Below, in pieces: positions 29,187-47,775 of a stretch of DNA of 64,000 bases; the stretch's first letter is position 1, and each line of letters starts with the position of its first letter. The position numbers and the translations under genes are program-made. The stretch lies in the NCBI RefSeq assembly GCF_015207255.1, contig NZ_JADEXG010000011.1, positions 1-64,000 of the forward strand. Reading direction: 5' to 3'. Origin of the DNA: Vasconcelosia minhoensis LEGE 07310 (GTDB lineage: Bacteria; Cyanobacteriota; Cyanobacteriia; Phormidesmidales; Phormidesmidaceae). The notes beneath the pieces were generated by a model that worked only from the letters and a program-made list of their open reading frames with translations, was not told the origin of the DNA and did not search any database.

Positions 29187-30524
29187 TTATAAACCGATAC
29201 CGTCATAGCGAGCAACATTTTCCTTGTCTAGCATTCGCCGACCGTCGATGACCAGAGGCTGAGCTGGAAGCTTGGCCAGCAGGTCTGGCAGCGCAGAGAA
29301 TTCTGGCCAGCGCGTGACCAGCACGATCGCTTGAGCATCGTCAATTGCCTGCTCTAAGCGATCGCAGAATACGACGGCGCTATCCTTGAACAAATCCTTG
29401 GTCGGCTCTAGGGCAATTGGGTCATAGGCTTTAATCTGGGCTCCCAGCTCTAGCAGCGACTGCATCACGGGTAGGGCTGGCGATTCTCTAATGTCGTCCG
29501 TGCCCGGTTTAAAAGCAAGACCCAGAATCGCGACGCGCAAATTATTGACATCTGGGCTGTGTTTTTTCAGCAGCCGAATCAGCTGATTTGGCTGCTCCAG
29601 GTTGACTCGAATCACAGATTCTAAAAGCTGCATCGGTTCGCCAGCCCGCTTGCCGTGGGCAATCAGCGCCTTGACATCTTTTGGGAAACAGCTACCGCCA
29701 AAGCCGCAGCCGGCTTCGATATAGCTCGTAAAGCTGGGCCGAATGCGGGTACCGTCCGACAGAATGGGGCTGAGTCGCTTATCGAGATGCACGCCCTCCA
29801 TCACATCAACCACGTCAATGCCGCCCAGGGCAGTGCAGAGATTGCCAATCTCATTGGCAAAAGAGATCATCGTCGCCAGCAGAGAGTTGGCCGTATATTT
29901 GATCATCTCTGCAGTTTTGCAGCTGGTTTCGAGCTTATCGACGTCTTCAAAGACGCTGTACAGCTCGCCCAGGAGCTGAATGCTCCTGGCGTCAATGCCG
30001 CCGAGCACGATTCGGTCAGGGGCCATAAAGTCCTTAATCGCTTCGCCTTCCTTTAGGAACTCGGGGTTCATCCCTACGCCAAAGTCTGGCCCGGCCTGCT
30101 TACCCGAGGCCGACTCTAGAATAGGCCGGACGATATCGTCGGTCGTTCCTGGCACGACGGTACTCTTAACCACAACCAAATGGTATGAAGGCTTGTCTTT
30201 CAACACGGTGCCAATCTGCTCAGCCACCTCTTTGATGTAGCGCAGGTCAATTACGCTGCCGTCAAAGGGGGTGCCCACCGCAATAATTGAGAGGTCCGTA
30301 GACAGGACCGCCTGCCGCAAATCGGTAGTCGCTTTCAGCTGCTGGCCTACCGTCTGCTGGAGCAGCTCGTCTAAGCCCTCCTCATAGATTGGCGACATTC
30401 CCTGGTTGATCTTGCTGACCTTGTCCGCGTCGATATCGACACAGGTGACCTGATGCCCTTTGGCCGCCAGACACACGCCAGACACCAGCCCAACGTACCC
30501 TGTCCCAACTACAGAAACTTTCAT
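29187..30524 (-). CDS. ugd: UDP-glucose 6-dehydrogenase
   Basis: This enzyme oxidises UDP-glucose to UDP-glucuronate with two NAD, supplying acidic sugars for exopolysaccharide and precursor for UDP-xylose. The 445-residue protein has the NAD site VVGTGYVGLVSG at the N-terminus, the family block GMNPEFLKEGEAI, and the catalytic Cys in GCGFGGSCFPKDVKAL. The C-terminal UDP-binding domain contains GLAFKPGTDDIRESPAL. It lies directly after the SDR gene with no gap, which fits a UDP-glucose to UDP-glucuronate to UDP-xylose path. It is the last gene of the leftward polysaccharide cluster. Confidence 0.95.
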   Translation of the reverse strand: MKVSVVGTGYVGLVSGVCLAAKGHQVTCVDIDADKVSKINQGMSPIYEEGLDELLQQTVGQQLKATTDLRQAVLSTDLSIIAVGTPFDGSVIDLRYIKEVAEQIGTVLKDKPSYHLVVVKSTVVPGTTDDIVRPILESASGKQAGPDFGVGMNPEFLKEGEAIKDFMAPDRIVLGGIDARSIQLLGELYSVFEDVDKLETSCKTAEMIKYTANSLLATMISFANEIGNLCTALGGIDVVDVMEGVHLDKRLSPILSDGTRIRPSFTSYIEAGCGFGGSCFPKDVKALIAHGKRAGEPMQLLESVIRVNLEQPNQLIRLLKKHSPDVNNLRVAILGLAFKPGTDDIRESPALPVMQSLLELGAQIKAYDPIALEPTKDLFKDSAVVFCDRLEQAIDDAQAIVLVTRWPEFSALPDLLAKLPAQPLVIDGRRMLDKENVARYDGIGL

Positions 30525-31631
30525 CTATTTATCCTCTGCCTGCTGATTGTCTTGATACCAGAGCAGGGTGCGCTTCAGCCCCGACTCTAGGGAAATACTC
30601 GGCTGGTAGTCCAGCTCTGACCGCGCCTTTTCAATCACCGGACAGCGGCGATTGGGATTATCGACCAGATAGTCTCGGTCTGAGCTAGCCTGGCGGACAA
30701 CCTGGCCGGTGTAGTCGAACAGCGATCGCGACATCTCCACCACCTGCTGCGCCAGCTCTAGCACCGAAATTTCCGGCTGCTCAACGCCGATGTTATAGGC
30801 TTCGCCGGGGCGCCCTCGGACCAGCACCTTGTAGTAGCCGACGATGGCATCGGCAATGTAGCAGAAGGTCCGGGTGGGAGCCCCGTCCGAAAGCATGACA
30901 ATATCTTTTCCGGCTAACACATCACGGGCAAAATCCGGCAGCACGCGGCGGTCAGTAATTTTCAGGCCGGGACCGTAGTTATTAAACGGACGCGCCGTTT
31001 TAATCGGCAGGTCGTACTGCTGGGCAAAGTTAACACAGAGGGTTTCGCCGTATCGCTTAGATTCGTCATAGCAGGCCCTCGGCCCGGTGCAGGACACGTT
31101 ACCACGATAGGTTTCCGGGGTCGGAATATTTTCAGGAGTCGGGTCGCCGTAGATTTCACTGGTGGAGTAAAAGAGGAAGCCCTCTACCGGCGCGGGGCTG
31201 CTCTGCTGCTGGCGGCAGTATTCCAGCAGGTAGCGCAGCCCGCTGACGTTGGCATCCATGGTCTCGATTGGGTACTTGCGATAGTAGATCGGCGAGGCGA
31301 TAGAAGCGGCATGGATAATGTACTGAAAGTCGCCGATCGAATCGGGCAGGGGATGCGTGACATCGTGCTTCACCAGGGTCAGATTGGGGTTTTCCTTGAG
31401 CTGGGTCAGCCAGTCGGGGATGCCCCGAATATAGTTGTCGTAAACGGTGAGGCGAATCGGCTGGCCCGCAGATTGATTCCAATGCAGGATGGACTGCACC
31501 AGGTAGTAGCCTAAAAAGCCAGCGCCGCCGGTAATCAATAGGTTTTTGCCGGCGAGCTGAGCAAATTCTGACTGAAGATGCTGACAGATGTAGCTGAGGT
31601 CTGCATCGATGACGTCTTTAGCGGTTTTCAT
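30525..31631 (-). CDS. NAD-dependent epimerase/decarboxylase (UDP-xylose-synthase-like SDR)
   Basis: A 368-residue extended short-chain dehydrogenase. N-terminal ITGGAGFLGYYLVQ binds NAD; the Tyr-x3-Lys pair lies in CYDESKRYGE, and the substrate-side blocks NNYGPG and FCYIADAI are typical of UDP-glucuronate decarboxylases and related sugar-nucleotide enzymes. The frame is open to 31760, but the ATG at 31631 matches the family, and the longer version would overlap the upstream gene. Next to ugd, its likely reaction is UDP-glucuronate to UDP-xylose. An alternative, given rfbF upstream, is action on a CDP-sugar; sequence alone does not settle this. Confidence 0.85.
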   Translation of the reverse strand: MKTAKDVIDADLSYICQHLQSEFAQLAGKNLLITGGAGFLGYYLVQSILHWNQSAGQPIRLTVYDNYIRGIPDWLTQLKENPNLTLVKHDVTHPLPDSIGDFQYIIHAASIASPIYYRKYPIETMDANVSGLRYLLEYCRQQQSSPAPVEGFLFYSTSEIYGDPTPENIPTPETYRGNVSCTGPRACYDESKRYGETLCVNFAQQYDLPIKTARPFNNYGPGLKITDRRVLPDFARDVLAGKDIVMLSDGAPTRTFCYIADAIVGYYKVLVRGRPGEAYNIGVEQPEISVLELAQQVVEMSRSLFDYTGQVVRQASSDRDYLVDNPNRRCPVIEKARSELDYQPSISLESGLKRTLLWYQDNQQAEDK

Positions 31632-31683
31632 AGGAGTGGGTAAGAGAGGCGTACATTTTTTGAGCCGCGATCGCGCTGCCGGA

Positions 31684-32979
31684 TCAGTTTTTAGATCCAA
31701 AGTGCCGATCCTGCTCGGCTCGGAGCTGATGCGCGAGTCGGCCCTGGGGCAGTTCGACATCGTCGTAGGTCAGGACCTGATCTTGCACCACATCGCGCTT
31801 CAGGCGGCAGCCCTCCGCCAGTCCCATCGGCAACAGTTTTTGGGCCATGACAACATCGGCATTGTCACACTGGCCGTAGGTCTTGTAGCCGCCTAGCCCA
31901 TCTAGGGTTTCACCGGCTTTGAGGTCTGTCTTTGCCGTAGTAATCACATCGACGACCTGGCCGCCCAGCGGCGCAATCACCACATCCTGGAGCAGGGCCA
32001 CCCGAGCTGCCGAAAGCGGCACTTCAAACACGGTCAGGTGATAGGGCACATAGAAGCTGTAGAGCGGCCCTTCGCCTAGCTTGCCGTAGTTCAGGTAGTG
32101 AGCCTGGATTGGGTCATCGTGGGTGGCAAACACAAACACCCCGGGACTGGGCTTGGGGCCGACAACGTAATCGACAATCCCACCCCAGGCCCTGAGCTGA
32201 TCGACGTCGTAGTGGGTGACCATGTCGTCGATGTGGCCCCGATACTCGTAGCCCAGCATGCCGCGCTGGGCCACCTTCATGCCGGTGGCGTTGGCGACGA
32301 TCGCCTGCTCAAAGGAAATCTTCGTGCCGTCGGCAAAGCTGGTGACCATATGGGCGGTTTGGCCCCACTGCTTGGCAAAGCTCTCCTGGGTTGTGGGGTT
32401 GCGGTATCGGTCCTGGAGTCCCTTGATGTTGCCACACAGCACCGGGGTCAGCCCGATACTCTCGACAAACCGATAAAGGTTGAGCTGCACGCCGGGCTGG
32501 TCGCCATCGCAGCCGGTCAGAATGACCCCGGCCCGGTCGGCGTAGACCTTCAAGATTGGCCCGACGGTGCCGTCTAGCTCGGCGTTCATGGTGACGATAG
32601 GCTTGCCGCATTCAATCGCCTTGAGAATCACCTGGGCACCAAATTCTACATGGCCGGTGGTTTCGATCAGGACTTCGATTTCTCCAGACTGGCAGAGCAG
32701 CTCGGCGTCATCGGTGACGGCATATTTGCCCTGGGCGATCGCGCTATCTAGCTCAGCGGTCGTCGTTACTTCTTTGATATCGCCAATGCCGACCTTACTG
32801 TAAGCTTCGTGAGCTGCAGACAGGGTGCGGTTTGAAATCGCCACCAGCCGCATTCCCGGCATGTAGTTGGCAATCTGATTGGCAATGCCTCGGCCCATAA
32901 ACCCGGCCCCAATCATGCCAACACGCAGCGGATTGTGGTCGGCCTGACGGGCTTTGAGCGCAGTATCAACGATCATCAT
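31684..32979 (-). CDS. Homoserine-dehydrogenase-like NAD(P) oxidoreductase with SAF-like C-terminus
   Basis: A 431-residue protein. The N-terminal Rossmann fold has VGMIGAGFMGRGIANQI. The centre has homoserine-dehydrogenase-like segments (ETTGHVEFGAQVI, MNAELDGTVGPIL, GCDGDQPGV). The C-terminal part (about 330-431) resembles a SAF domain. Members of this family lie in polysaccharide clusters, but their reaction is poorly defined. It overlaps the rfbC gene by 4 bp, so the two are translated together. A role in making or branching a sugar unit is a context-based inference, not shown by any catalytic motif I can read. Confidence 0.75.
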   Translation of the reverse strand: MMIVDTALKARQADHNPLRVGMIGAGFMGRGIANQIANYMPGMRLVAISNRTLSAAHEAYSKVGIGDIKEVTTTAELDSAIAQGKYAVTDDAELLCQSGEIEVLIETTGHVEFGAQVILKAIECGKPIVTMNAELDGTVGPILKVYADRAGVILTGCDGDQPGVQLNLYRFVESIGLTPVLCGNIKGLQDRYRNPTTQESFAKQWGQTAHMVTSFADGTKISFEQAIVANATGMKVAQRGMLGYEYRGHIDDMVTHYDVDQLRAWGGIVDYVVGPKPSPGVFVFATHDDPIQAHYLNYGKLGEGPLYSFYVPYHLTVFEVPLSAARVALLQDVVIAPLGGQVVDVITTAKTDLKAGETLDGLGGYKTYGQCDNADVVMAQKLLPMGLAEGCRLKRDVVQDQVLTYDDVELPQGRLAHQLRAEQDRHFGSKN

Positions 32980-33530
32980 GGGGAAACCTCAGCGGTTGCG
33001 GTTGGACTAAACAGCGGCCAGGCAGCGTCTTTTGCAGAGAGCTGACTGACCGGCAGGGGCCAGTCTATTTTAAAGGTTGGGTCGTCATAGCGAATGCCCT
33101 GCTCGCAGCCCGGCGTATAGAATTCACTCACCGAGTAGAGCGCTTCTGACCCGTCCGTCAGGGCCTGGTAGCCATGGCCAAACAGCTCTGGCACATAGAG
33201 GCCGCGTCGATTTTGGGCCGACAGCTCTACCCCGACATGCTGTAAATAGGTGACTGATTCTGGCCGCAGATCGACGATGACGTGATAGTTTGCCCCCTGG
33301 ATGCAGCGCAGAAATTTGGCTTCGGCTGCCGGTGGGGTCTGATAGTGCAGCCCTCGTAGGGTGCCCTGCTGATGGCTGAGCGACAGGTTGCACTGCGCGA
33401 TCGCGGACTTTAGACCCTGGGCCTCGAACGCTTTTGCACAAAAGGCCCGCGCAAAGAAGCCGCGGTCGTCCGCAATCGGCTCCAGCTCGATGATAAAAGC
33501 CCCTGCTAGGCCAGTGGGAATAAATTGCAT
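32976..33530 (-). CDS. rfbC: dTDP-4-dehydrorhamnose 3,5-epimerase-like protein
   Basis: A cupin-fold epimerase of 184 residues acting on 4-keto-6-deoxy sugar nucleotides. Family marks are LEPIADDRGFFARAF, SHQQGTLRGLHYQ (catalytic His region), RCIQGANYHVIVDLRPES and VPELFGHGYQALTDGSEALY. No rfbA, rfbB or rfbD lies beside it, so the substrate may be a CDP- rather than a dTDP-sugar, in keeping with the upstream rfbF-type gene. Overlap with the next gene by 4 bp implies coupled translation. Confidence 0.88.
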   Translation of the reverse strand: MQFIPTGLAGAFIIELEPIADDRGFFARAFCAKAFEAQGLKSAIAQCNLSLSHQQGTLRGLHYQTPPAAEAKFLRCIQGANYHVIVDLRPESVTYLQHVGVELSAQNRRGLYVPELFGHGYQALTDGSEALYSVSEFYTPGCEQGIRYDDPTFKIDWPLPVSQLSAKDAAWPLFSPTATAEVSP

Positions 33531-33580
33531 ATCGCTAAACTCCTTAATTCACCTGTGGACTCCGGACCAGCCAAGGAAAA

Positions 33581-34354
33581 CTACCAGACTTTCCAGGGTG
33601 CCTCACCCTCTTTCCAAAGCCGCTCCAGCAAATTCTTGTCCCGCAGCGTATCCATCGGATGCCAGAAACCGCTGTGCCGGTACGCGGAAAGCTGCTGCAT
33701 ATGGGCGAGCTTCTTCAGCGGCTCCTGCTCCCAAACGGTCTTGTCCGCCGCGATTAGATCAATCACCTGGGGCTCCAAGACAAAGTATCCGCCGCTAATC
33801 CAGGCCCCATCCCCCTCTGGCTTCTCCTGAAAACTCTCAATCTTGGTCTGCTCTTGAGCTAGGGAAATAGCGCCGAATCGCCCCGGTGGCTGCACCGCAG
33901 TCAGGGTGGCAGAGGTACCCTGAGCCTTGTGAAACGCCACTAGCTTAGTAATATCAATATCGCTGACGCCGTCGCCGTAGGTAAAGCAGAAGGTTTCTGA
34001 GCCAATGTGCTCTCTGACGCGCTTTAGTCGGCCACCCGTCATCGTCTCCTCGCCCGTATCGACCAGCGTCACCTGCCAGGGTTCGGCTTTACCCGCATGC
34101 ACATTCATTTGGTTGAAGCGCATATCAAAGGTGACGTCGGACATGTGTAGGAAATAGTTGGCAAAGTATTCCTTGATCACATAGCCTTTATAGCCACAGC
34201 AGATAATAAATTCATCGATGCCGTGGGCTGAATAGGTCTTCATGATATGCCAGAGGATGGGCTTGCCGCCGATCTCCACCATCGGCTTAGGCTTGATCCC
34301 GGTTTCTTCGCTCAGGCGAGTGCCAAACCCACCCGCTAGTATGACTGCTTTCAT
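33581..34354 (-). CDS. rfbF: Glucose-1-phosphate cytidylyltransferase
   Basis: A 257-residue nucleotidyltransferase that makes CDP-glucose from CTP and glucose-1-phosphate, the first step to CDP-linked dideoxy or branched sugars. [18 protein letters not shown] is the nucleotide-binding signature and [17 protein letters not shown] the following block; [10 protein letters not shown] provides the metal-binding Asp. The frame extends to 34387, but ATG at 34354 matches the family start and has GGTGA upstream. The usual next enzyme, CDP-glucose 4,6-dehydratase, is not an obvious neighbour. Confidence 0.92.
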
Positions 34355-34387
34355 AAGGTCACCAAAAGTTACAATCGTATAGGTCAC

Positions 34388-35575
34388 TCACTGCGACTGG
34401 AAGTCTTTTTCGATGCGGGCCATCACCTGAGCGATAACGGTTTGATATCGCTGAACATTGAACGTTTCTCTAACTTTTTTCTGGGTTTGAAACCAGTCAA
34501 CGGGATAGGCATTTCCTTTGACCAGGGTCGCGATCGCGTTGGCAATAGACTCCCCGGTCGGCTCACAGGTCCAGAGGTCCTCCGGGTCAAAAAATTCCCT
34601 CAGCGCTGGCGAATCCATCGTCAGCGTTGGCAGGCCCAGCGTTAGCGCTTCGACCAGCTTGTTGGGAACCGCGGCCCGCGCTTTGTCCGTATCGCCAAAG
34701 ATACCCAAGGCTAGGTCACAATGCTCATGTAAGAAATGGGGCAGGGACCCATCGAGGAATCGCAGGTCTTGTCTCAAAAAGACCCGATCGCTGAGGTGGC
34801 TGCGCTCAATTTTTTGGCGGTAGTCTTCAAACACTTGCTGCTGGCCGGTTGGCGGCACCCCAAAGAGATAGCAGCGGTAGGCCATTCCCCAATCTTTCAG
34901 AAGCTGCATGGCTTGAATGATGTTATCCAGACCGTGCAGGGGAATAAAAGTTCCCCACCAGCAAATGCTGATCGCATCGGCTGATTTGAAGCCGCCTGAC
35001 CCCAGCGCTGTGGAAGATGACGCGGAGGATTCGGTAATTTCGCTGAACAAAGGTGCAATAAAGCATTTATCAAAGTTAATTTGAATGCCTAGCATATCTT
35101 GCCAATATCGAAGCTCATAGTCAGCAATATCAATGATGTAGTCAGCCTGGGTCAGCGCTAGAGTATCTTTCTGCTTTAGCCGAGCCGCTTCGGGGCTATT
35201 TACAGGCACGGTTTGCTTATCCTTGACAGCGGTATCATACAGAGAAGCATAAACCTCAACGACCAGCTTGGCATTGAATAGTCGAGCTGCCCAGAGGGCG
35301 CTTCTGATCAATTCCACGTTCATGGGCAGAAGATAGATAACATCTGCTAGGGCGGCTTTAATAAACAGCTCGACCCAGTAATAAGCCGAAAAAACAATTC
35401 GTAAAATCTTAGAAATTAAATCTTTTTTAATGCCTCGCTCGAAGTAAAATTCGGGAAATATAAAACTAAGTCGATAGCCAGAATCAAGCAAATATTTAAT
35501 CAGGTTTTCGGAGCGATAGGCCCCATACAGGTTGCCGTAGAGCAAGATTTTCAAGCGCTTTTTTGAAATCGGCAT
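34388..35575 (-). CDS. Glycosyltransferase, GT-B fold (GT4-like)
   Basis: A 395-residue transferase. The N-terminal half (LKILLYGNLYGAYRSENLIKYLL) is the acceptor domain. The C-terminal half carries GT4-like blocks CWWGTFIPLHGLDNIIQAMQLLKD, YRCYLFG, and AAVPNKLVEALTLGLPTLTMDSPALREFF, where the usual donor-binding Glu lies in KLVEAL. The 5' half of the gene (about 35240-35575) is strikingly AT-rich compared with its neighbours, which suggests separate acquisition. Donor and acceptor are unknown; position implies assembly of the exopolysaccharide repeat unit. Confidence 0.82.
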   Translation of the reverse strand: MPISKKRLKILLYGNLYGAYRSENLIKYLLDSGYRLSFIFPEFYFERGIKKDLISKILRIVFSAYYWVELFIKAALADVIYLLPMNVELIRSALWAARLFNAKLVVEVYASLYDTAVKDKQTVPVNSPEAARLKQKDTLALTQADYIIDIADYELRYWQDMLGIQINFDKCFIAPLFSEITESSASSSTALGSGGFKSADAISICWWGTFIPLHGLDNIIQAMQLLKDWGMAYRCYLFGVPPTGQQQVFEDYRQKIERSHLSDRVFLRQDLRFLDGSLPHFLHEHCDLALGIFGDTDKARAAVPNKLVEALTLGLPTLTMDSPALREFFDPEDLWTCEPTGESIANAIATLVKGNAYPVDWFQTQKKVRETFNVQRYQTVIAQVMARIEKDFQSQ

Positions 35576-35635: not shown

Positions 35636-36574
35636 CTAGCTTGGCTTTTCTGAAGGCCTGTTCGATATTAAAGATAGCTTTGCAATTTTGAACAGCGCCG
35701 ACAGCAGGACCCGAGTCTGTTTTAGCATGGCGGGATTGTAAGCAACCGAGCGGAATAGGCAGCCTGCGGCAAACATCGCTTCTTTACGACCTAAACGGTC
35801 TTTTTCAGGCGCACTCAAGACCTTAAAGGTGAGATATTTGTAAAAGCTTGCTAGTGCTTTTGGCTTGAGCCTTTGGAAACTGTCGGGAGTCTGCGCAAAC
35901 ACCCTGTCGATTACCGCTAGCCCGGCCGACCGATGGTTCTCTAACCTGAAGGACTTTGACCGGGACGAAACGCGGTAAAGCACCTGTACCTGGGGCACAA
36001 CGGCGAAGCGGTACTGAGCGGCTAGCCGCACCCACATTTCCCAATCTTCTGCAGTGCGTAGCGTTTCGTCAAAGCCGCCGGTGTGATCAATAGCCGTTTT
36101 ACGAATCAGGGGATTGGACCCACTTTCCAAAAAACTGCCCAATACAATCCGCTCGTATACGTCACCTGCAATCGTCGAATGCATTCCCGAGCGCAGAAAT
36201 TGACCAGATTCATCGATATAGTCCACCCAGCTATAGGCCACGGCTACCGCCGGATCGGCCGCTAACGCCTGAACCTGTGCGGCCAGTTTGTCAGGCAGCC
36301 AGAGGTCGTCGGCGTCTAAAAAGGCAATATACTGGCCCGATGCCTTGGCGATACCGAGGTTTCGGCTCGCTGAAACGCCTGAATTTTTCTGAGAGACGAC
36401 GGTCAGCCTACAGTCCTCAATCGCGTCGAGCCGCTCCAGCGTTCGGTCGGTTGAGCCATCGTCAATTACAATAATTTCAAAATCGGTCAGCGTCTGCTGT
36501 ATAACAGACTCAACCGTTTCGGCAATGGTTCGCTCGCTATTATAGGCTGGGATGATTACCGAGATGAGAGCCAT
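35636..36574 (-). CDS. Glycosyltransferase family 2
   Basis: A 312-residue GT-A enzyme. The N-terminus has VIIPAYNSERTIAETVESV, then IIVIDDGSTDRTLERL for nucleotide binding, YIAFLDADDLW as the metal-binding DXD, and RTAEDWEMWVRLA with the acceptor-side Glu-Asp. The C-terminal 80 residues are basic and weakly hydrophobic, with no clear membrane helix, so it probably acts on the cytoplasmic face of the membrane. It is followed by 60 bp and another glycosyltransferase in the same operon. Confidence 0.88.
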   Translation of the reverse strand: MALISVIIPAYNSERTIAETVESVIQQTLTDFEIIVIDDGSTDRTLERLDAIEDCRLTVVSQKNSGVSASRNLGIAKASGQYIAFLDADDLWLPDKLAAQVQALAADPAVAVAYSWVDYIDESGQFLRSGMHSTIAGDVYERIVLGSFLESGSNPLIRKTAIDHTGGFDETLRTAEDWEMWVRLAAQYRFAVVPQVQVLYRVSSRSKSFRLENHRSAGLAVIDRVFAQTPDSFQRLKPKALASFYKYLTFKVLSAPEKDRLGRKEAMFAAGCLFRSVAYNPAMLKQTRVLLSALFKIAKLSLISNRPSEKPS

Positions 36575-36588
36575 GACGTCAGGTCGCT

Positions 36589-37608
36589 TCAGGTTTCCAG
36601 GTGTTTACAGCTAAGCTGGCCCGGTTGTGCTGGCCCCGTGGCCCGGCGCGGCAGGTGGCTGACCAGGCTGCGGCCAATAAAGTAGGCCGGACTGAGGGCA
36701 CTGCTCAAAAAGAACGCCATCTCGCAGGCCGCGATCGTGTCTTTCTGAGGATTTCCAGCATGGGTCCAATAGTGCTTGAGCGCACGACGCCAGCCGCCCA
36801 GCGCAATCTTGGCCATAATCAGCGGCTTTTGCCAGTAGCTTTTAGCCGTAATCATCCGAAGATGACAGATACAGAGCCCGCAAGCCCAGCTGAGATTGAT
36901 CAAATAGGCTCTTTCCAAACGCCTGTCCGGAATTTCGTGGGCAGCGTGGAGGTCAGGATTGTACCAGATCTCCCAGCCAGCCCTGTGCAGATAGAGCAGC
37001 GGCTCGAAATCTTCCCCTCCAACCATTGAGCCGCTTACCGGGCCGCTTAGGGCTAGGTGGGTGGGCACATCCCTCAGCCAGGCCTGGCGTCGTACCACCC
37101 AGGCTGCCGAGGGCGGCAACACTAGGTTTTCTGGGTCGTATTGATGCGCCTCGGGGCCGCGTTCCCGAATTGCCAGGAAGGACTGAATACGCTTGAAGTT
37201 TTCTGGGGGTGGCGTCTCAAACTTGCCATGGATCTGACCGCCATAGGCACCGGCGCGATCGCGGGACGCGCCAGCGGCATAGGCCGTCGCCACCCAATCA
37301 GCAGCCGGGATAATGTCGTCGTCGAGAAAACCTACCCATTCACTCTGGGCCGTTTGAATCGCCTTTTGACGGGCGAAGCCAGCTCCCTGCTGAGGCTCGA
37401 AGGCATATCTGAGGGTGGGGGTAGTATCGGCCCAGTCCCGCTGATACTGCTGAATCAAAGCAGCGGTCTGGTCGCTGCTGTTGTTATCGACGACCAAGAT
37501 TTCCCAGTCCAGGTCTGCCGGATAAGTCTGCGATCGCAGCTGCTCAAGCAGCCTGGGCAGCCGCTCAGCCCCGTTATAGGTTGGAATAGCAACTGTAAAG
37601 TCTGGCAT
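36589..37608 (-). CDS. hpsE: HpsE-type glycosyltransferase family 2
   Basis: A GT2 protein of 339 residues from the ATG at 37608 (a GTG at 37620 would add four). It matches the cyanobacterial HpsE type linked to hormogonium polysaccharide: FTVAIPTYNGAERLPRLLEQL, LVVDNNSSDQT, GFLDDDIIPAADWV as the DXD, and the later SMVGGEDFEPLLYLHRAGWEIWYNPDLHAAHEI. The C-terminus has a hydrophobic region that may anchor it. A second HpsE-type catalytic domain follows in the next upstream gene. Whether the organism makes hormogonia cannot be told from here. Confidence 0.85.
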   Translation of the reverse strand: MPDFTVAIPTYNGAERLPRLLEQLRSQTYPADLDWEILVVDNNSSDQTAALIQQYQRDWADTTPTLRYAFEPQQGAGFARQKAIQTAQSEWVGFLDDDIIPAADWVATAYAAGASRDRAGAYGGQIHGKFETPPPENFKRIQSFLAIRERGPEAHQYDPENLVLPPSAAWVVRRQAWLRDVPTHLALSGPVSGSMVGGEDFEPLLYLHRAGWEIWYNPDLHAAHEIPDRRLERAYLINLSWACGLCICHLRMITAKSYWQKPLIMAKIALGGWRRALKHYWTHAGNPQKDTIAACEMAFFLSSALSPAYFIGRSLVSHLPRRATGPAQPGQLSCKHLET

Positions 37609-37692
37609 GGTTGGCTCCACAACTGGGCGCGTAGAAGGGGCAGAATCTGACTACTGAGGGGTAACCCCAGCTCCATTAAAATGACATCTCAT

Positions 37693-39651
37693 CTAAAACC
37701 TCAGCGGCTGAGGCTCAGCCAGCTGGTATCCCTGAACATAGTCAACCTCCGTTTTTTTCAACTGACTGAGGGCCTGAGCTGTCTCAACCCCTTTGGCCAC
37801 AATCTGAATCGAGCGAGCGTGGCTCAGCTGAATCATGGACTGCGCCTGCTCAAAGGCAGAAGCATTCCGAACGGCTGCTTTGACCGTATGGCTGCTGAGC
37901 TTAAGGTAGTGAATAGGGAACTGACTGACAAATTTTTCCACTCCACCGCACTGGCTGAAGTCGTCAATGGCCACTAGGCAGCCAATCTCATGCAGCCCGT
38001 GAATCAGCTGGCTGACCTGAACCGGCAGCGCGATCGCGTCGGCTTCGGTAATCTCAAAGCAGAGCTGGCACGGGGGAAATCGATGTCGCTGTAGCTGGTC
38101 GGCGATAAAGCTAGGCAGTTTGGGATCGCAGACACTAGCAGTCGATAGATTGACGGAGTAGATAGACTGGGGCTGGGTCGGCAGATGAGTCAGCTTTGAC
38201 GCCGAGCCCTCTGCCGCGCTTTGAGCTGGGAGAGATTGAAAAAATTTACGCAGGACCCAGCGATCGAGGGTGCGGAGCAGGCCATAGTGCTCCGCAACGG
38301 GGATGAAGCGGTTTGGAGAAACCATGCCCAAATTAGGACTGGCTGACTCGGCCTGGTCAAACAGGCGTAGTAGAACTTCACCTGATGCTTGACTATGGCT
38401 GTTAGCGGCGATCACCGGCTGGCTATACAGCTGGAATCGATCCTGCTCGAAGGCCTGGGTCAGCCGCTCTAGCCACTCCTGCCGCTGCGGCAGATGACGG
38501 CGCTCATAGCGGGCCTGCTGCCCGTCCTGATGGGCTTTGCGGAGCAAGAAGAAGGGGCTGACGACCGTACTGCGGAGGTGTTCGCGATCGCAGGCGGCCA
38601 GCAGCGATGACTCATTCGAGCGCCGGACCAGGTTGAGCGCCAGCTTACGCAAATCGTTGGCAATGTAGCCTGGGATCATCAGCGGTCGCTGCCAGGAGCG
38701 AATGCGCATCATCCGAATATAAAATCGGCTGAGCCCGTCACAGTGCAGCAGCTGGAGCAGATAGTCCTGCTCGAGTCGCTCGCTAGAAATCTGGTGATAG
38801 ACGACCATTGCCGGGTTATACCAAACCTGCCAGCCTGCTTTCTGAATATGCAGCACGGCTTCCAGATCTTCGCTAGCCAGGCCCGCGGCTTTGCCTTTGT
38901 TGTTCAAAAATAGGCGCGGGGGGACGGCATCGAGCCAGGCCTGTCGCCGCACCACTAGTCCGGCTCCGGGGGGTAAAATTTTCTTCTGAGGCTCGTACAG
39001 ATGGGGGGTGTCGCCGCGCTCGATAATGGCTAGGAAAGGCTTGATTTTGGCCAGCTCCGGCGGCGTCAGCTGGTCCGGCGGGCCGGCTGAGAATTCGCCG
39101 TGGATCTGGCTGCCAAAAGCGCCGGCGCCGGGATGAGCTTGGCCAAAGCGATAGGCCTGCTCGACCCAGTCGCAAGCAGGTAGATTATCATCATCCAGGA
39201 AGGCAATCAGCTCTCCCTGGGCGACGGTGGCAATTCGCTGCCGGGCATGGGCCGCGCCCTGTTCAGGGGCAAAGCGGTAGTGGAGTGATACCGCCTGAGG
39301 CCCCTCCTGATCCCAAATTCGCTGATAGCGCCGGACGACCTCAGCCGTCTCATCGGAGCTGTTGTTGTCGCAGACGATGATTTCCCAAGCAATATCGGCG
39401 ATATTGATCTGCGATCGCAGCCGATCTAAAACTAGCGGTAGCCGCTTTGCTCCGTCATAGGTTGGAATCGCCACAGTCACATCGAGGCTGACGACGCAGC
39501 CATCAGCCTGAGCGGTCAAGGCCCTATTGGGGGCCGTATTGGGGGTAGGGTTGGGAGCGTCAGCCATCAGGGGGGCGTTGTTAACCGTAGCCGATTCTGG
39601 CTTTGACCGTGGGGTCTCTGGCTGTAGCGCGGAAAGCGGACCTTGGAGCAT
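37693..39651 (-). CDS. HpsE-type glycosyltransferase fused to a degenerate EAL domain
   Basis: A 652-residue fusion. Residues 1-50 are Pro/Ala/Asn-rich and disordered. Residues 55-390 are a GT2 domain of HpsE type (DVTVAIPTYDGAKRL, CDNNSSDET, DXD in FLDDDNLP, ASEDLEAVLHIQKAGWQVWYNP). Residues 400-650 are an EAL domain with Glu425 (EVL), Asn501, Glu533 and Asp563-Asp564 kept. In AEGVE the first Glu, the proposed general base, is Lys620, and the DDFGTG loop reads DDFSQCGG. Hydrolysis of c-di-GMP is therefore unlikely, but ligand binding could remain. It is the first gene of the cluster, so it could gate polysaccharide output to c-di-GMP. Confidence 0.9.
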   Translation of the reverse strand: MLQGPLSALQPETPRSKPESATVNNAPLMADAPNPTPNTAPNRALTAQADGCVVSLDVTVAIPTYDGAKRLPLVLDRLRSQINIADIAWEIIVCDNNSSDETAEVVRRYQRIWDQEGPQAVSLHYRFAPEQGAAHARQRIATVAQGELIAFLDDDNLPACDWVEQAYRFGQAHPGAGAFGSQIHGEFSAGPPDQLTPPELAKIKPFLAIIERGDTPHLYEPQKKILPPGAGLVVRRQAWLDAVPPRLFLNNKGKAAGLASEDLEAVLHIQKAGWQVWYNPAMVVYHQISSERLEQDYLLQLLHCDGLSRFYIRMMRIRSWQRPLMIPGYIANDLRKLALNLVRRSNESSLLAACDREHLRSTVVSPFFLLRKAHQDGQQARYERRHLPQRQEWLERLTQAFEQDRFQLYSQPVIAANSHSQASGEVLLRLFDQAESASPNLGMVSPNRFIPVAEHYGLLRTLDRWVLRKFFQSLPAQSAAEGSASKLTHLPTQPQSIYSVNLSTASVCDPKLPSFIADQLQRHRFPPCQLCFEITEADAIALPVQVSQLIHGLHEIGCLVAIDDFSQCGGVEKFVSQFPIHYLKLSSHTVKAAVRNASAFEQAQSMIQLSHARSIQIVAKGVETAQALSQLKKTEVDYVQGYQLAEPQPLRF

Positions 39652-39917: not shown

Positions 39918-40517
39918 TTAGCCCAGCTTATCGCCGCTGAGCACGAAAATGGGGTCTATCGCCGCAAAAAACTGCTGATTGCCTCGGGTTTCCAACCGAT
40001 TGACAGCGGGCTGCGCCACTTCTATATTGCGTACCTGGAGTTCGGCAAATGCTTCTGAAACCGCGTACAGGCCTTTCAGGCTGCCGACGGTAACGACGAT
40101 GCGCCCATCGGGCAGCAGCCGTTTCCAGATCGACTGAAGGATTTCCTTGAACGACCGCCCGCCCTCGATCAGCACACAGTCGGGCGACTCGGGCAGCTGG
40201 CTAAGGCAGTCGGGGGCACTGCCGACGGTCACTTCAATATTGGTCAGCTCAAAGCGATCGCAGTTGGTTTGAATCAGCTGGGCCACCTCCGGATCGCGCT
40301 CGACCGCGATCACTTTACCCTGCCGACAGAGCAGTCCGGCCTCAACCGCAATCGTCCCCGTCCCCGCCCCAATATCCCACAGCACCGAGTCGGCCCTGAG
40401 CCGCAGGTAGCCCAGCAGCAGCAGCCGCACTTCTCGCTGACTCAGCGGAATACCCGGCAGCCGCTCGAACAGATGATCGGGAATACCGGGCGTAACGTAG
40501 GGCCAGAGGGCAGACAT
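39918..40517 (-). CDS. cbiT: Precorrin-6B C15-methyltransferase/decarboxylase subunit CbiT
   Basis: CbiT methylates C15 and decarboxylates the cobalamin precursor ring. The 199-residue protein has VTPGIPDHLFERLPGIPLSQREVRLLLL, the SAM site LWDIGAGTGTIAVEAGLL, VIAVERDPE, and FIEGG-type VLIEGGRSFKEILQ, all family marks. I chose the ATG at 40517; the frame is open to 40577 and the extra residues look unconserved. The 3' end of the decarboxylase gene upstream is adjacent. No other cobalamin biosynthesis gene is visible, but metH, a cobalamin user, lies 2 kb away. Confidence 0.88.
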   Translation of the reverse strand: MSALWPYVTPGIPDHLFERLPGIPLSQREVRLLLLGYLRLRADSVLWDIGAGTGTIAVEAGLLCRQGKVIAVERDPEVAQLIQTNCDRFELTNIEVTVGSAPDCLSQLPESPDCVLIEGGRSFKEILQSIWKRLLPDGRIVVTVGSLKGLYAVSEAFAELQVRNIEVAQPAVNRLETRGNQQFFAAIDPIFVLSGDKLG

Positions 40518-40573
40518 AGGGAGCGCTGGTTTATCCCTCAGCATAGAAGATCCGGGCCGCGATCTCCTAGCAT

Positions 40574-42052
40574 TCAAACGTCCTTGGACTGAACCACGGC
40601 TAGGGTCTGGAGGGTGGCATCCCGGCAGCCAGTCAGCACACCGCCTACCGCCAGCACCTGCTGCAGCGCCCTGATCGCAGCTGCGCTGATTCGCTCTCCC
40701 GGCAGCAGAGTGGGAATGCCCGGCGGATAAGGGCAGACGGTCTCAGCACTAATCCGGCCAACGGCGTCAGCGACGGGTAGGATTTGGGTGGGCGCAAAGA
40801 ATGCCTGGCGGGGGCTACAGCCTGTTTCTATAGACCGTTCCAGCTCCGTGAAATCGGTCTTAGGCAGGTTTAATGGACCTGAGCCGCGATCGCGCAGTCC
40901 CGCTAGCGCCTCTACTAGCTGCTCCATATCCGCCAGGTCATTGCCCCAGCCGACGATGAAGGTCAGCTGCTGCAGCGTCGGCAGTTCCGCCGTGACGCCC
41001 CAATCCTTGTGCAGCATTCGATCGGCTTCATAGCCGGTCATCCCCAGGCCAGAAACATCAACCGTCAGCCGGGTGCGATCCCAGTCGGCACAGCCCGGCG
41101 TTCGCCCCATTATCTGAGGGCCAATCACCCGCAGTCCGGGCAGCTGAGCAATCCGCTGGCGAGCCCGATCGGCTCGCGTCAGCGCCTGCGCTATGAGGTC
41201 TAGTCCCTCAGTGGCCATCTGCTGGCGAGCGGCGTCGAGGGAGCCTAATAGCAAATAGCTGGGGCTGCTGGACTGGGTGAGGGCCAGGGCCTGAGACAGA
41301 CGATGGCGGTCTATCCGGCTCCCCTGAGCGTGGAGCAGGGCGGCCTGGGTGAAGGCGCTAAGCACCTTATGGGCAGACTGGATGACGATATCGGCCCCGG
41401 CTCTGAGCGCCGGAGTAGGTAGCTCAGGATGGAAGGCGAAATGAGCCCCGTGGGCTTCGTCTACAATCAGCGGCAGAGCATGGCGGTGGGCGAGTTCGGC
41501 AATTTCTTCGACATCGGCGCAGATGCCCTGATAAGTCGGCGAGGTGATCAAAACGGCGCGGGCGTCGGGGTGCTGGGCTAGAGCCTGCGCGATCGCGTCT
41601 GCCGTGATGCTGTGGGCTAGTCCCCAGTCGGGGTCGTAGTCCGGAGTGACGTAGACAGGCTGGGCACCGGAGAGGATCAGGCCCGCGATCGCCGATCGGT
41701 GAGCATTGCGCGGCAGAATCAGCTTTTCACCTGGGCCACAGGTGGCCAGGATGGCGGCTTCTACACCGCTAGTCGAGCCGTTAGCCAAAAACCAGGTCTG
41801 CTCTGCCCCAAATGCTTCTGCCGCCAGCTCTTGAGCAGCTAGGATCACGCCTTCTGGCGCAAATAGATTATCTAGCTCCGGCAGCTCCGGCAGGTCAGCA
41901 GTAAAGACAGACGCACCGAACAGATCCCTATGCCGCTGAGAAACGCCGCGTCCGCGCTTGTGCCCCGGCGTGTAGAAAGCCGCGTTTGGGCGGATGGCAC
42001 AGTGCCTGAGAGCCTCTACCAGCGGCGCAGCCGACTGATCCATTGACTCCAT
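40574..42052 (-). CDS. PLP-dependent Orn/Lys/Arg decarboxylase family protein
   Basis: A 492-residue fold-type I enzyme that decarboxylates a basic amino acid, feeding polyamine synthesis. It starts with PNAAFYTPGHKRGRG, a family hallmark, then FLANGSTSGVEAAIL, SPTYQGICADVEEIAELAHR, the PLP Asp in IVDEAHGAHF, and the Schiff-base Lys in IQSAHKVLSAFTQ. The C-terminal domain has VCPYPPGIPTLLPGERI. It is shorter than E. coli SpeA/CadA because it lacks the N-terminal wing domain, as usual for the cyanobacterial class. Arginine is the likeliest substrate in cyanobacteria, but lysine or ornithine remain possible. Confidence 0.88.
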   Translation of the reverse strand: MESMDQSAAPLVEALRHCAIRPNAAFYTPGHKRGRGVSQRHRDLFGASVFTADLPELPELDNLFAPEGVILAAQELAAEAFGAEQTWFLANGSTSGVEAAILATCGPGEKLILPRNAHRSAIAGLILSGAQPVYVTPDYDPDWGLAHSITADAIAQALAQHPDARAVLITSPTYQGICADVEEIAELAHRHALPLIVDEAHGAHFAFHPELPTPALRAGADIVIQSAHKVLSAFTQAALLHAQGSRIDRHRLSQALALTQSSSPSYLLLGSLDAARQQMATEGLDLIAQALTRADRARQRIAQLPGLRVIGPQIMGRTPGCADWDRTRLTVDVSGLGMTGYEADRMLHKDWGVTAELPTLQQLTFIVGWGNDLADMEQLVEALAGLRDRGSGPLNLPKTDFTELERSIETGCSPRQAFFAPTQILPVADAVGRISAETVCPYPPGIPTLLPGERISAAAIRALQQVLAVGGVLTGCRDATLQTLAVVQSKDV

Positions 42053-42695: not shown

Positions 42696-45600
42696 ATGAA
42701 AAGCACCTTCCTCAACCGTCTGCACAGCCCGGAGCGTCCCGTTCTCGTCTTTGACGGCGCGATGGGCACGTCGCTCCAGTCGCAGCAGCTGACGGCGGCG
42801 GACTTTGGTGGCGCCGAGTATGAGGGCTGCAACGAGTATCTGGTCGAGACCCAGCCGGAAGCGGTTGAGAAAGTCCATCGCAGCTTTCTAGAAGCCGGGG
42901 CCGATGTGATCGAGACGGATACCTTTGGCGCGACCTCAATCGTCCTGGCGGAATATGACCTGGCCGACCGGGCCTATGCGCTGAACAAGAAGGCAGCTGA
43001 ACTTGCTAAGCAGGTCGCGGTTGAATACTCGACTCCCGAAAAACCGCGTTTTGTCGCCGGTTCTATGGGGCCGGGGACAAAGCTGCCAACCCTGGGCCAT
43101 ATTGACTTTGACTCGCTCAAGGCGGCCTACGCTGAGCAGGCCGAGGGACTCTACGACGGCGGAGCCGACCTGCTAATCGTCGAAACCTGCCAGGACGTGC
43201 TCCAGATCAAGGCGGCCCTGAACGCGATTGAGGAAGTCTTTGCCCGCAAAGGCGAACGGCTGCCGCTGATGGTGTCGGTGACGGTAGAGCAGCAGGGGAC
43301 GATGCTGGTCGGCTCTGAAATTAGCGCCGCCCTCACCATTTTGGAACCCTACCCGATCAATATTCTGGGCCTCAACTGCGCCACCGGCCCCGACCTGATG
43401 AAGGAGCATATTAAATATCTGTCAGAAAGCTCACCCTTCGTCATCTCCTGCATTCCCAACGCGGGCCTGCCGGAAAACGTCGGCGGCCAGGCTCACTATC
43501 GGCTGACGCCGATGGAGCTGCGGATGTCCCTGATGCACTTTATCGAAGACCTGGGCGTGCAGGTGATCGGCGGCTGCTGCGGCACCCGAGCCGACCACAT
43601 TGCCCAGCTGGCCGAACTCTCCCGAGGGCTGCGAGCCAAGCCCCGGCAGGTTGGAGGCCGCAGCGAGCTGCCGCCCTACGGTGGGCTCGCCTACCAGCCC
43701 TCAGCCGCCTCGATCTATAGCCCCCAGCCCTACGAGCAGGACAACTCTTTTCTGATCATCGGCGAGCGGCTCAACGCCAGCGGCTCTAAAAAATGCCGCG
43801 AACTGCTGAACGCCGAAGACTGGGACGGCCTAGTAGCTTTGGCCAAAGCCCAGGTCAAAGAGGGGGCACATATGCTCGACGTCAACGTGGACTACGTGGG
43901 TCGAGACGGCGATCGCGATATGCGTGAGCTGGTTTCGCGGCTGGTCACCAACGTCACCCTGCCGCTGATGCTCGACTCCACCGAATGGCAAAAAATGGAG
44001 GCGGGGCTCAAGGTCGCAGGCGGCAAATGTATCCTCAATTCGACCAACTATGAGGATGGGGAGGAGCGCTTCTTTAAGCTGCTGCAGCTGGCTAAGCGCT
44101 ACGGTGCGGGCATCGTTGTCGGCACAATCGACGAAGACGGTATGGCTCGCAGCGCCAGCAAAAAGTTTGAAATCGCCCAGCGGGCCTACCGAGCCGCGGT
44201 AGAGTACGGCCTGCCGCCCTACGAAATTTTCTTTGACCCGCTGGCCCTGCCGATTTCCACCGGCATTGAAGAAGACCGGGTGAACGCCAGGGAGACGATC
44301 GAAGCGATTCGCCAGATTCGCTCGAACCTGCCGGGATGCCACATCGTCCTGGGCGTGTCGAACGTCTCCTTCGGTCTTAGCCCAGCGGCGCGGGTGACGC
44401 TGAATTCGGTGTTTTTGCACGACGCGATCGCGGCTGGGATGGACGCCGCCATCATCAGCGCCAGCAAAATTCTACCGCTGGCCAAAATTGAACCCGAGCA
44501 TCAGGCCCTCTGCCGCGACCTAATTGACGATCGCCGCCAGTTTACCGGCGAAGCCTGCACCTACGATCCCCTGACTAAGCTGACGACGCTGTTTGAAGGC
44601 AAGTCAACCCGGCAGATGAAGTCGGCCTCGGATGAAACTCTGCCGGTGGAGGAGCGGCTGAAGAATCACATTATTGACGGCGAGCGGATCGGACTGGAGG
44701 AGCAGCTGGAGAGAGCGCGGGAGAAATACGCGCCGCTGGACATTATCAACACCTTTTTGCTCGACGGCATGAAAGTGGTGGGAGAGCTGTTCGGCTCGGG
44801 GCAGATGCAGCTGCCCTTCGTGCTCCAGTCGGCTCAGACGATGAAGGCGGCGGTCGCCCATCTAGAACCCTACATGGACAAGGCCGATAGTAACGGCAGT
44901 GGCAAGGGTACGGTGGTGATCGCCACGGTTAAGGGCGACGTCCACGACATTGGCAAAAACCTGGTAGACATCATCCTGTCGAATAACGGCTACAAGGTGG
45001 TGAATCTGGGGATCAAGCAGCCGGTAGACAATATCATTACCGCCTACCGGGAGCACGGGGCCGACTGCATCGCTATGAGCGGCCTGCTGGTGAAATCGAC
45101 CGCCTTTATGAAAGAAAATCTAGCCGTGTTTAACGACCAGGGGATCACGGTGCCGGTAATCCTGGGCGGAGCGGCCCTGACGCCCAAGTTTGTCTATCAG
45201 GACTGTCAGCAGACCTATCAGGGCCGGGTAATCTATGGCAAAGATGCCTTCGCCGACCTGCACTTTATGGACGAGCTGATGCCCGCTAAGCAGGCAGGCG
45301 AATGGGACGATATCCAGGGATTCTTAACCGAGCCGGAGAGTGATGCTCCCACCCCAACGCCTCAGCACGCAACCGTCAGGTCGGGCGATGCTGCTGACCC
45401 CACCGTTCCGCCCGCGACGCAGGTAATTGATGAGCGCCGCTCGGACGCGATCGCAATCGACATCGACCGCCCCGCCCCGCCCTTTTGGGGCACGCAGGTG
45501 CTGTCTGAGCAGGACATTCCGCTGACAGAGGTGTTCAGCTATCTCGACTTGCAGGCGCTGATTGCCGGGCAGTGGCAGTTCCGCAAGCCCAAAGACCAGA

Positions 45601-46295
45601 CGCGAGCCGAGTACGATGAATTTCTGGCCGAAAAGGTCTACCCGATTCTGACCGAGTGGCAGCGGCGGGTTGAGGCCGAAGCGCTGCTCCAGCCCCAGGG
45701 GGTGTACGGCTATTTTCCCTGTCTGGCCGAGGGCAATCGGCTGCACATTTACGATCCGGCGGCGGCTCAGGCTGAGGAATCGGCAGACGCGATCGCGGTG
45801 TTTGAATTTCCCCGGCAGCGATCGCTCCGTCGCCTCTGCATTGCCGACTTTTTCCTGCCCAAAGCCGCAGCCCAGCCGGGGCAGTATGACGTCTTTCCCA
45901 TGCAGGCGGTGACCGTCGGTGAAATTGCGACGGAGGTGGCGCAGCAGCTCTTTGCCAACGACCAGTACACCGACTATCTCTACTTCCACGGTCTGGCCGT
46001 ACAGGTGGCCGAAGCCCTGGCCGAATGGACCCACGCCCGCATTCGCCGGGAGCTGGGCTTTGCTAACGAAGAACCCGAAAGCCTCCGCGACGTGCTAGCG
46101 CAGCGCTACCGGGGCTCGCGCTACAGCTTTGGCTATCCGGCCTGTCCCCGCATTCACGACCAGTTCCGGCAGCTAGAGCTGCTAGGAGCCGAGCGGATCG
46201 GGCTGCATATGGACGAAAGCGAGCAGCTTTACCCAGAGCAGTCTACAACCGCGATCGTCACCTATCACTCTGAGGCAAAGTACTTCAGCGCTTAG
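42696..46295 (+). CDS. metH: Cobalamin-dependent methionine synthase
   Basis: MetH transfers a methyl group from methyltetrahydrofolate to homocysteine through cobalamin. All four modules are present in 1199 residues. They are the homocysteine domain (about 10-320, zinc Cys pair in [12 protein letters not shown]), the pterin domain (about 345-620, [15 protein letters not shown]), and the cobalamin cap and domain (about 660-890, [14 protein letters not shown] carries the cobalt His). The last is the AdoMet-dependent activation domain (about 930-1195, ending [14 protein letters not shown]). The linker at 885-930 is Pro/Thr-rich and longer than usual. I see no cobalamin riboswitch in the 140 bp upstream. 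Confidence 0.97.
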
Positions 46296-46456
46296 AGACA
46301 TTAGGGTCTATACTCATAACATCTATATTAAGCAATGTAACATTTTGACCCACTCTTCTCATTCAGCGCTAGCGGTTACAGACAGTGCCATTTTCAGAAC
46401 GGCAGCTGAAGTTATAGAGTACTGAAGGACTACGCCCCTTTATTGAAGTTTCAGAT

Positions 46457-47302
46457 TTGAATCCATTGACAGCACAGCTACTCATTGGAATTTTTATTCC
46501 GTCCGAATCACTGGCGGAAACGCTGCGCGAACCGCTTTCCCACAGCAGGTTTGTAGTGAGCTGGAGTGAGAATTCAGCGGATTTTCTGGACTGGGCAATT
46601 GATAATCGGCATCAGATTGACTGCTTAATTTTGCAGCAGCATTCTGTCGTCTACGAGAGCTTAATCGAGCTTCAGCAGCGTGATATCCTGCTACCCACGC
46701 TGATTGTAGAATCCGAACGGCGGGCCGCTGAGCTAGACCAGGCCTACCATGAAGCAGTGATCAAACTCGCAGCCGACGAGCTGGCAGATTTGGAAAAGTC
46801 GATTCACAAAGCGGTCGATCGATTTTTAAAGCTGCCTGCGGTACCCGGTTCATCTCAAGCCGAACTTTCTGCGCCGGACCATCGGCTATTTCTCCTGAGT
46901 CTGCAACAGCAGCGGCTTTCTGAGAAGCTAAAAGAGCGACTAGGCTATCTAGGCGTTTACTACAAGCGTAATCCCAGGAACTTTCTGCGCAGTGTGTCCG
47001 TTTTAGAACGGGATGAATTTTTAAATAAGCTGCGTCAGGACTACCGGCACATCATTTTGATTTATTTCTCTCAAGATGATACGCTCAATCAAAAAATTGA
47101 TGACTTCGTTAATGTTGCCTTTTTTGCCGATATTTCAATTTCGCAAATTGTTGAAATTCATATGGAACTGATCGACGAGTTCTCCAAACAGCTTCAGCTC
47201 GAAGGGCGAAACGAAGAAATCTTACTAGACTATCGCCTAACGCTAATTGACTTAATCGCTCATCTCTGTGAAATGTATCGGCGCTCAATCCCACGGGAGT
47301 GA
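46457..47302 (+). CDS. kaiA: Circadian clock protein KaiA
   Basis: KaiA binds the C-terminal tail of KaiC and stimulates its autophosphorylation. The 281-residue protein has an N-terminal pseudo-receiver domain (about 5-135) and a C-terminal helical dimer domain (about 175-278) with LKERLGYLGVYYKRNPRNFLR, FADISISQIVEIHMELIDEFSKQL and the ending LIDLIAHLCEMYRRSIPRE, diagnostic for KaiA. Length is near that of Synechococcus elongatus (284). The start is TTG, since no ATG fits the conserved N-terminus; no strong ribosome site is seen, which may set a low level. kaiB follows after 72 bp and kaiC after that, the standard order. Confidence 0.95.
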   Translation: MNPLTAQLLIGIFIPSESLAETLREPLSHSRFVVSWSENSADFLDWAIDNRHQIDCLILQQHSVVYESLIELQQRDILLPTLIVESERRAAELDQAYHEAVIKLAADELADLEKSIHKAVDRFLKLPAVPGSSQAELSAPDHRLFLLSLQQQRLSEKLKERLGYLGVYYKRNPRNFLRSVSVLERDEFLNKLRQDYRHIILIYFSQDDTLNQKIDDFVNVAFFADISISQIVEIHMELIDEFSKQLQLEGRNEEILLDYRLTLIDLIAHLCEMYRRSIPRE

Positions 47303-47320
47303 TGAGGGGTGATAGATTGG

Positions 47321-47339
47321 GCGAAGCGTATCCCTTCGC
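47321..47339 (+). promoter_or_regulatory. Hairpin between kaiA and kaiB
   Basis: GCGAAG (47321-47326) and CTTCGC (47334-47339) form a 6-bp stem with a 7-nt loop in the short kaiA-kaiB gap. No T tract follows, so it is not an obvious terminator. It could lie in the kaiBC promoter or leader. Evidence is limited to symmetry and location. Confidence 0.3.
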
Positions 47340-47374
47340 AGTCAGCTGATCTAACCGATATTGTGGGCTAGTTT

Positions 47375-47692
47375 ATGGTCGCTTCAAAGAAAACATACAT
47401 TTTAAAGCTCTACGTAGCCGGCAATACGCCCAACTCTATTCGGGCATTAAAGATGCTGAATAATATTCTGGATCAGGAGTTTCAAGGCGTCTATGCGCTA
47501 AAAGTTATCGACGTCCTCAAAAATCCTCAGCTGGCTGAAGAAGATAAAATCCTGGCGACGCCTACCCTATCGAAAATTCTGCCCCCACCCGTCCGTAAAA
47601 TTATTGGCGACCTTTCCGACCGCGAAAGGGTTTTGATTGGGCTTGATCTTCTCTATGATGAGTTGCTAGAGGACGAATCGCTTTACTCCTAA
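47375..47692 (+). CDS. kaiB: Circadian clock protein KaiB
   Basis: KaiB is the fold-switching clock protein that binds the KaiC CI ring at night and captures KaiA. The 105-residue sequence is nearly canonical: [76 protein letters not shown], then an acidic tail. It lies 83 bp before kaiC and is probably in one transcript with it. Confidence 0.98.
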
Positions 47693-47775
47693 CAAACCTT
47701 CCCATCAAATTTTCGACCCCGCCAACCCTTAGTTAGAACCCCTAGTCAACCCCAGCCTCTTCCCTCCGACCTGCT

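Follow-up and report, generated by a model that had tools for sequence, protein, structure and literature searches.

A candidate c-di-GMP receptor in cis: an HpsE-type glycosyltransferase with a catalytically degenerate EAL tail in Phormidesmidaceae

Direct control of polysaccharide glycosyltransferases by c-di-GMP is known in several arrangements. In NfrB of E. coli, which belongs to an exopolysaccharide gene set, a GT2 glycosyltransferase carries a C-terminal MshEN domain as the c-di-GMP receptor (PMC8669469). BcsA, PgaC/PgaD and HfsJ are also under direct control, the receptor being a PilZ domain (BcsA) or the interface between the transferase and its partner, with no EAL domain involved. 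Dead EAL domains form another group of receptors: those of FimX and LapD bind c-di-GMP through an ExLxR motif (PMC12564702, PMC10333796). Transferases that carry an MshEN or PilZ receptor are thus already known, as are receptors made of a dead EAL domain, and what would be new here is a dead EAL domain joined to a polysaccharide transferase as its proposed cis receptor. A search of the open-licence literature found neither a glycosyltransferase-EAL fusion nor a dead EAL domain acting as cis receptor of a polysaccharide transferase, and passages of open-licence reviews, a weak form of evidence, give MshEN-GT, PilZ-GT and PgaCD as receptor-transferase types, without EAL-GT among them.

The window analysed here (the whole stretch of 64,000 nucleotides at positions 1 to 64,000 of contig NZ_JADEXG010000011.1 of Vasconcelosia minhoensis LEGE 07310) contains such a fusion at the head of a run of polysaccharide genes:

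37693..39651, minus strand: HpsE-type GT2 glycosyltransferase and catalytically degenerate EAL domain in one ORF of 652 aa; a single ORF in 17 genomes
38545..39486, minus strand: its GT2 (HpsE) domain, residues 56-369; NF038302 at 405 bits, motifs FLDDDN and ASEDLE, GT-A fold predicted by AF2
38443..38604, minus strand: predicted helical linker from the C-terminal transferase helix (350-386) to the first EAL helix (390-403); AF2, pLDDT about 85-90
37711..38469, minus strand: its EAL domain, residues 395-647; M1 and ExLxR kept, M2 and loop 6 lost, Lys620 at the Glu of AEGVE
36589..37620, minus strand: tandem partner, a second, unfused HpsE-family GT2 of 343 aa; NF038302 at 434 bits; adjoins the fusion in most relatives and also the unfused orthologues
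35636..36574, minus strand: a further GT2 glycosyltransferase in this run, kept downstream in several relatives
34388..35575, minus strand: GT4-like glycosyltransferase of the same gene run (Pfam; comparison with relatives)
29187..34387, minus strand: glucose-1-phosphate cytidylyltransferase, RmlC-like epimerase, DRL oxidoreductase, NAD epimerase/dehydratase and UDP-glucose dehydrogenase-like genes (Pfam, NCBIfam)

The fusion occupies a stop-free frame of 652 aa on the minus strand; read on the plus strand, the interval is full of stops. Translation could instead begin at Met29, where several relatives begin in the alignment. Pfam places Glycos_transf_2 at residues 59-184 (70.3 bits) and EAL (PF00563) at 395-647 (165.7 bits against a gathering score of 31.3), while NCBIfam assigns residues 56-369 to HpsE, the hormogonium polysaccharide glycosyltransferase family (NF038302), at 405.3 bits against a curated cut-off of 300. 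A sequence-only reading of the window had already proposed a glycosyltransferase joined to an EAL domain, and the single frame, with the transferase recognised by Pfam and NCBIfam and the EAL domain by Pfam, confirms it on the minus strand. The N-terminal domain is therefore HpsE-like by its family cut-off, but the HpsE family model includes no EAL domain. The chain resembles NfrB as a GT2 enzyme with a C-terminal domain of c-di-GMP receptor type among exopolysaccharide genes (PMC8669469), with the receptor here being predicted. Unlike NfrB, that domain is EAL rather than MshEN, and the HpsE part has no evident transmembrane segment and does not belong by family to the processive membrane synthases. 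Pfam found no GGDEF domain in the chain, and neither an MshEN nor a PilZ domain.

We name the sites of the EAL domain after PA3825, in which Glu39, Asn98, Asp130 and Asp160 form the first metal site (M1) and Asp161 and Asp183 the second (M2), with Glu217 close by (PMC5301497). The spacing 98-130-160-183-217 equals 501-533-563-586-620 in the fusion, so that the residue mapping is firm. The M1 ligands E425, N501, E533 and D563 are all present in 16 of 16 aligned fusions, as are the ExLxR residues (E425, L427, R429) and also K584, Q640 and Q411; in the window protein itself E425, R429, N501, E533, D563, K584 and Q640 are retained. At M2, D564 is found in 7 of 16 and the Asp586-equivalent in none. 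The Glu of the AEGVE/AEFVE motif, replaced by Lys620 in the window protein, is absent throughout (Lys in 14, Asn in one, and Val in the most divergent fusion, L069/L015). The DDFGTG loop reads DDFSQC in the window, the full motif occurs in no fusion (0/16), and loop 6 has mostly lost its glycines. Hence each of the features that the sequence-only reading had singled out, namely several retained ligand residues, a lysine in place of the catalytic glutamate and a broken loop, holds in the window protein, and the retained set, the missing glutamate and the incomplete loop extend to all 16 fusions. All these residues are kept (29/29) in the ordinary EAL domains taken for comparison from this genome and related ones. 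The loop-6 motif is required for metal coordination and activity in EAL domains, and in PA3825 Glu217, at the position of Lys620, takes over the phosphate interactions of M2 when M2 is empty (PMC5301497).

Selective conservation of the pocket stands out against an EAL domain whose mean column identity is 53%: invariant columns account for 8 of 11 site residues versus 13 of 247 others (Fisher p=6.7e-8, a value that ignores shared ancestry). The FimX contacts Leu477, Arg479, Asp507, Glu654 and Tyr673 (PMC3527489) would map by spacing to L427, R429, D463, E623 and Y642, each of them invariant or almost invariant. Pocket invariance may in part reflect an inherited constraint of the fold, as ordinary EAL domains too are most strongly conserved at these residues, and since M1 ligands and putative nucleotide contacts are kept together, conservation alone does not separate ligand binding from metal binding. 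The EAL part evolves fast but is under purifying selection and the domain is maintained, as indicated by dN/dS values of 0.28, 0.11 and 0.17 in three closer pairs and 0.25 in a more distant one; the pair L061/L066 was excluded because its dS is saturated. A decaying pseudodomain is ruled out by these values (0.11-0.28) together with the invariant pocket.

Predicted structure agrees with a receptor-type EAL domain. The AF2 model of the full protein (pLDDT 80, pTM 0.79, with 16 sequences behind the model and no ligand) leads the last long transferase helix (350-386) directly into the first EAL helix (390-403). Its EAL domain matches FimX bound to c-di-GMP (3hv8, TM 0.87 by target length), Xanthomonas FimX (4f3h, TM 0.88) and LapD (3pjt, TM 0.86), and like these it is dead by its motifs, with an ExLxR-type motif kept and loop 6 lost. 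It differs from FimX and LapD in keeping all four M1 ligands, in carrying Lys at the Glu position of AEGVE, and in lacking GGDEF (including a degenerate one before the EAL domain), PAS, REC and membrane modules, its output being the fused glycosyltransferase. The predicted domain also matches the structure of RbdA, and RbdA/PA0861-type EAL domains (8pps, 5xgb) are its best sequence match in the PDB; in the alignment, however, RbdA has retained the catalytic Glu, the second Asp and the Asp of KID, all of which are lost or unstable in the fusions. A separate model of the transferase (pLDDT 88) has a GT-A fold whose nearest GT2 enzymes are TarS, TarP, RmlT and PcManGT (TM about 0.5). The GT2 motifs FLDDDN, with the DDD metal site, and ASEDLE, with the ED base, are present in 16 of 16 fusions.

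The most appealing scenario, to which we give a probability of roughly 0.6, is that an HpsE-type GT2 acquired its EAL tail in a single event, that the EAL domain lost M2 and loop 6, and hence hydrolysis, while its c-di-GMP pocket stayed, and that c-di-GMP would now bind the dead domain through ExLxR in the manner of FimX and LapD. The signal would pass through the helix that joins the EAL domain to the transferase, and the output would be control, in cis, of the attached transferase or of its partnership with the neighbouring second HpsE. As proposed for this chain, such direct control would resemble that of BcsA, PgaC/PgaD and HfsJ. The proposed control of the transferase in cis by c-di-GMP is well supported, at the level of sequence, by the selective conservation described above, in which binding and M1 residues are invariant and M2 and loop 6 are lost; from the same comparison we infer the absence of phosphodiesterase activity, the binding of c-di-GMP and allosteric control in cis. 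Rather more tentatively, the fusion may represent a distinct class of c-di-GMP-controlled glycosyltransferase with a one-metal-plus-lysine EAL site: with M1 retained and M2 deleted, Lys620 would stand in for the charge that the second metal offers to the phosphate, and the former hydrolase pocket would serve as a non-turnover receptor by which a polysaccharide transferase is gated in cis.

Eight same-strand polysaccharide and nucleotide-sugar genes lie downstream of the fusion. Upstream, 266 bp away and on the same strand, lies a methyltransferase gene (39918-40577; Pfam), which we take to be CbiT-like, followed by a decarboxylase and then a glyoxalase-type gene; this upstream order is common to many relatives and is not polysaccharide-related. 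The fusion had been described beforehand as the first gene of an exopolysaccharide operon, and by gene order it is indeed the first of a same-strand polysaccharide run, a putative operon. No c-di-GMP riboswitch or other Rfam element was found near the gene run, apart from one tRNA. Further away in the window, metH, kaiA, a kaiB-sized ORF and kaiC follow one another on the plus strand (42696-49335).

Five HpsE loci exceed the NF038302 cut-off in this genome, and the fusion, being a paralogue, therefore does not necessarily make hormogonium polysaccharide. A further HpsE copy (G000:C107:8130-8924) has two in-frame stops and is possibly a pseudogene or a frameshift. HpsE proteins encoded side by side, such as the fusion and 36589-37620 and their partners in L057-L073, form two subfamilies, the upstream one with SEDLE and most downstream ones with GDDYE, GEDFE or similar at the base motif. 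In two relatives, P. priestleyi and G012 (L061 and L066), the fusion is present and the second HpsE is not directly downstream. Several relatives encode after the HpsE pair a protein of about 555 aa of the type I phosphodiesterase/nucleotide-pyrophosphatase type (L057:7083-8744, with PF01663, and L071:11837-13492).

The EAL domain may instead have lost c-di-GMP binding and act structurally or in protein interaction, in the manner of CsrD or YdiV, docking the transferase to its partner HpsE or to an assembly. The fusion mostly sits beside a second HpsE, and in a genome of another family (G053, L108:838-2820) the SEDLE-type and the GDDYE-type HpsE form a single chain of 660 aa, which supports the idea that the tandem pair works together; loop 6 and surface regions are also strongly divergent while the fold is kept. 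However, a non-binding scaffold would not need the ExLxR Arg, the Asn, Glu, Lys and Gln and the first Asp of the pocket, all of which are invariant in 16 of 16 fusions despite the low overall identity of the domain, and we consider a docking role unlikely, though it is the strongest of the alternatives. Less probable still is that the pocket has been retuned to pGpG, another cyclic dinucleotide, a nucleotide-sugar or a product nucleotide of the pathway. The EAL domain of FimX binds pGpG as well (PMC3527489), and the change from Glu to Lys alters the charge beside the phosphate, but known receptors bind c-di-GMP with this same retained set of pocket residues, and nothing observed points positively to another ligand. 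More doubtful again is weak residual phosphodiesterase activity, by which the domain would drain c-di-GMP locally next to the transferase: the four M1 ligands and the Lys in all fusions and the DD pair in 7 of 16 would be compatible with it, but none of the 16 has either M2 ligand, at position 586 or 620, and the loop-6 motif is lost throughout (PMC5301497). Finally, a merger of two separate genes by a frameshift or by a sequencing or assembly error, suggested by the 3.2x assembly of Phormidesmis RL_2_1 in which the gene is broken over three frames, is ruled out for practical purposes by the single stop-free frame that crosses the junction in 17 genomes.

A search among relatives found the intact one-ORF fusion in 17 of the 65 genomes of this family of filamentous cyanobacteria, covering 9 of 14 genera (the order-level set comprises the same 65 genomes, and two extra genome records are duplicates of G026 and G087). 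Fusions of 16 relatives are 44-59% identical to that of the window, and all 16 aligned fusions match both Glycos_transf_2 and EAL; Phormidesmis priestleyi Ana is one such relative (L031, on the same contig as in G026). Among 390 genomes across the class, no fusion occurs outside the family in the listed matches (E below 1e-110), a range in which more distant fusions could be missed, and the best of these listed outside-family matches span the transferase part only.

All fused EAL domains form one clade in the EAL tree (bootstrap 92, SH-aLRT 96), and all fused transferase domains form one clade (SH-aLRT 99) that joins unfused orthologues from other families, with 57-58% identity over the GT domain. 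On these trees the two domains were joined in a single event, and the fusions are nested within the unfused HpsE orthologues. A second HpsE directly adjoins the unfused orthologues, as it does the fusion in most relatives, and no separate EAL gene that could represent a precursor state lies near them in five loci. Thus the EAL tail was added once, to a tandem HpsE pair that was already in place.

The proposed receptor would have a signal to respond to, since about 17 GGDEF domains in this genome (18 matches, with one domain apparently split over two of them) indicate that c-di-GMP is probably made in this organism, alongside 11 EAL matches. The window itself encodes a response regulator that combines GGDEF with a canonical EAL domain (19768-21510); it lies 16 kb from the fusion, about 8 kb beyond the point where the polysaccharide run ends. 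In Anabaena the c-di-GMP receptor CdgR controls cell size and viability (PMC13075795). The route from c-di-GMP to polysaccharide output in filamentous cyanobacteria is largely an open question, and the physical joining of a c-di-GMP-type pocket to a polysaccharide transferase makes this link testable on one purified protein. The 17 orthologues, with unfused orthologues as controls, moreover offer a natural series for the change of an EAL domain from enzyme to receptor.
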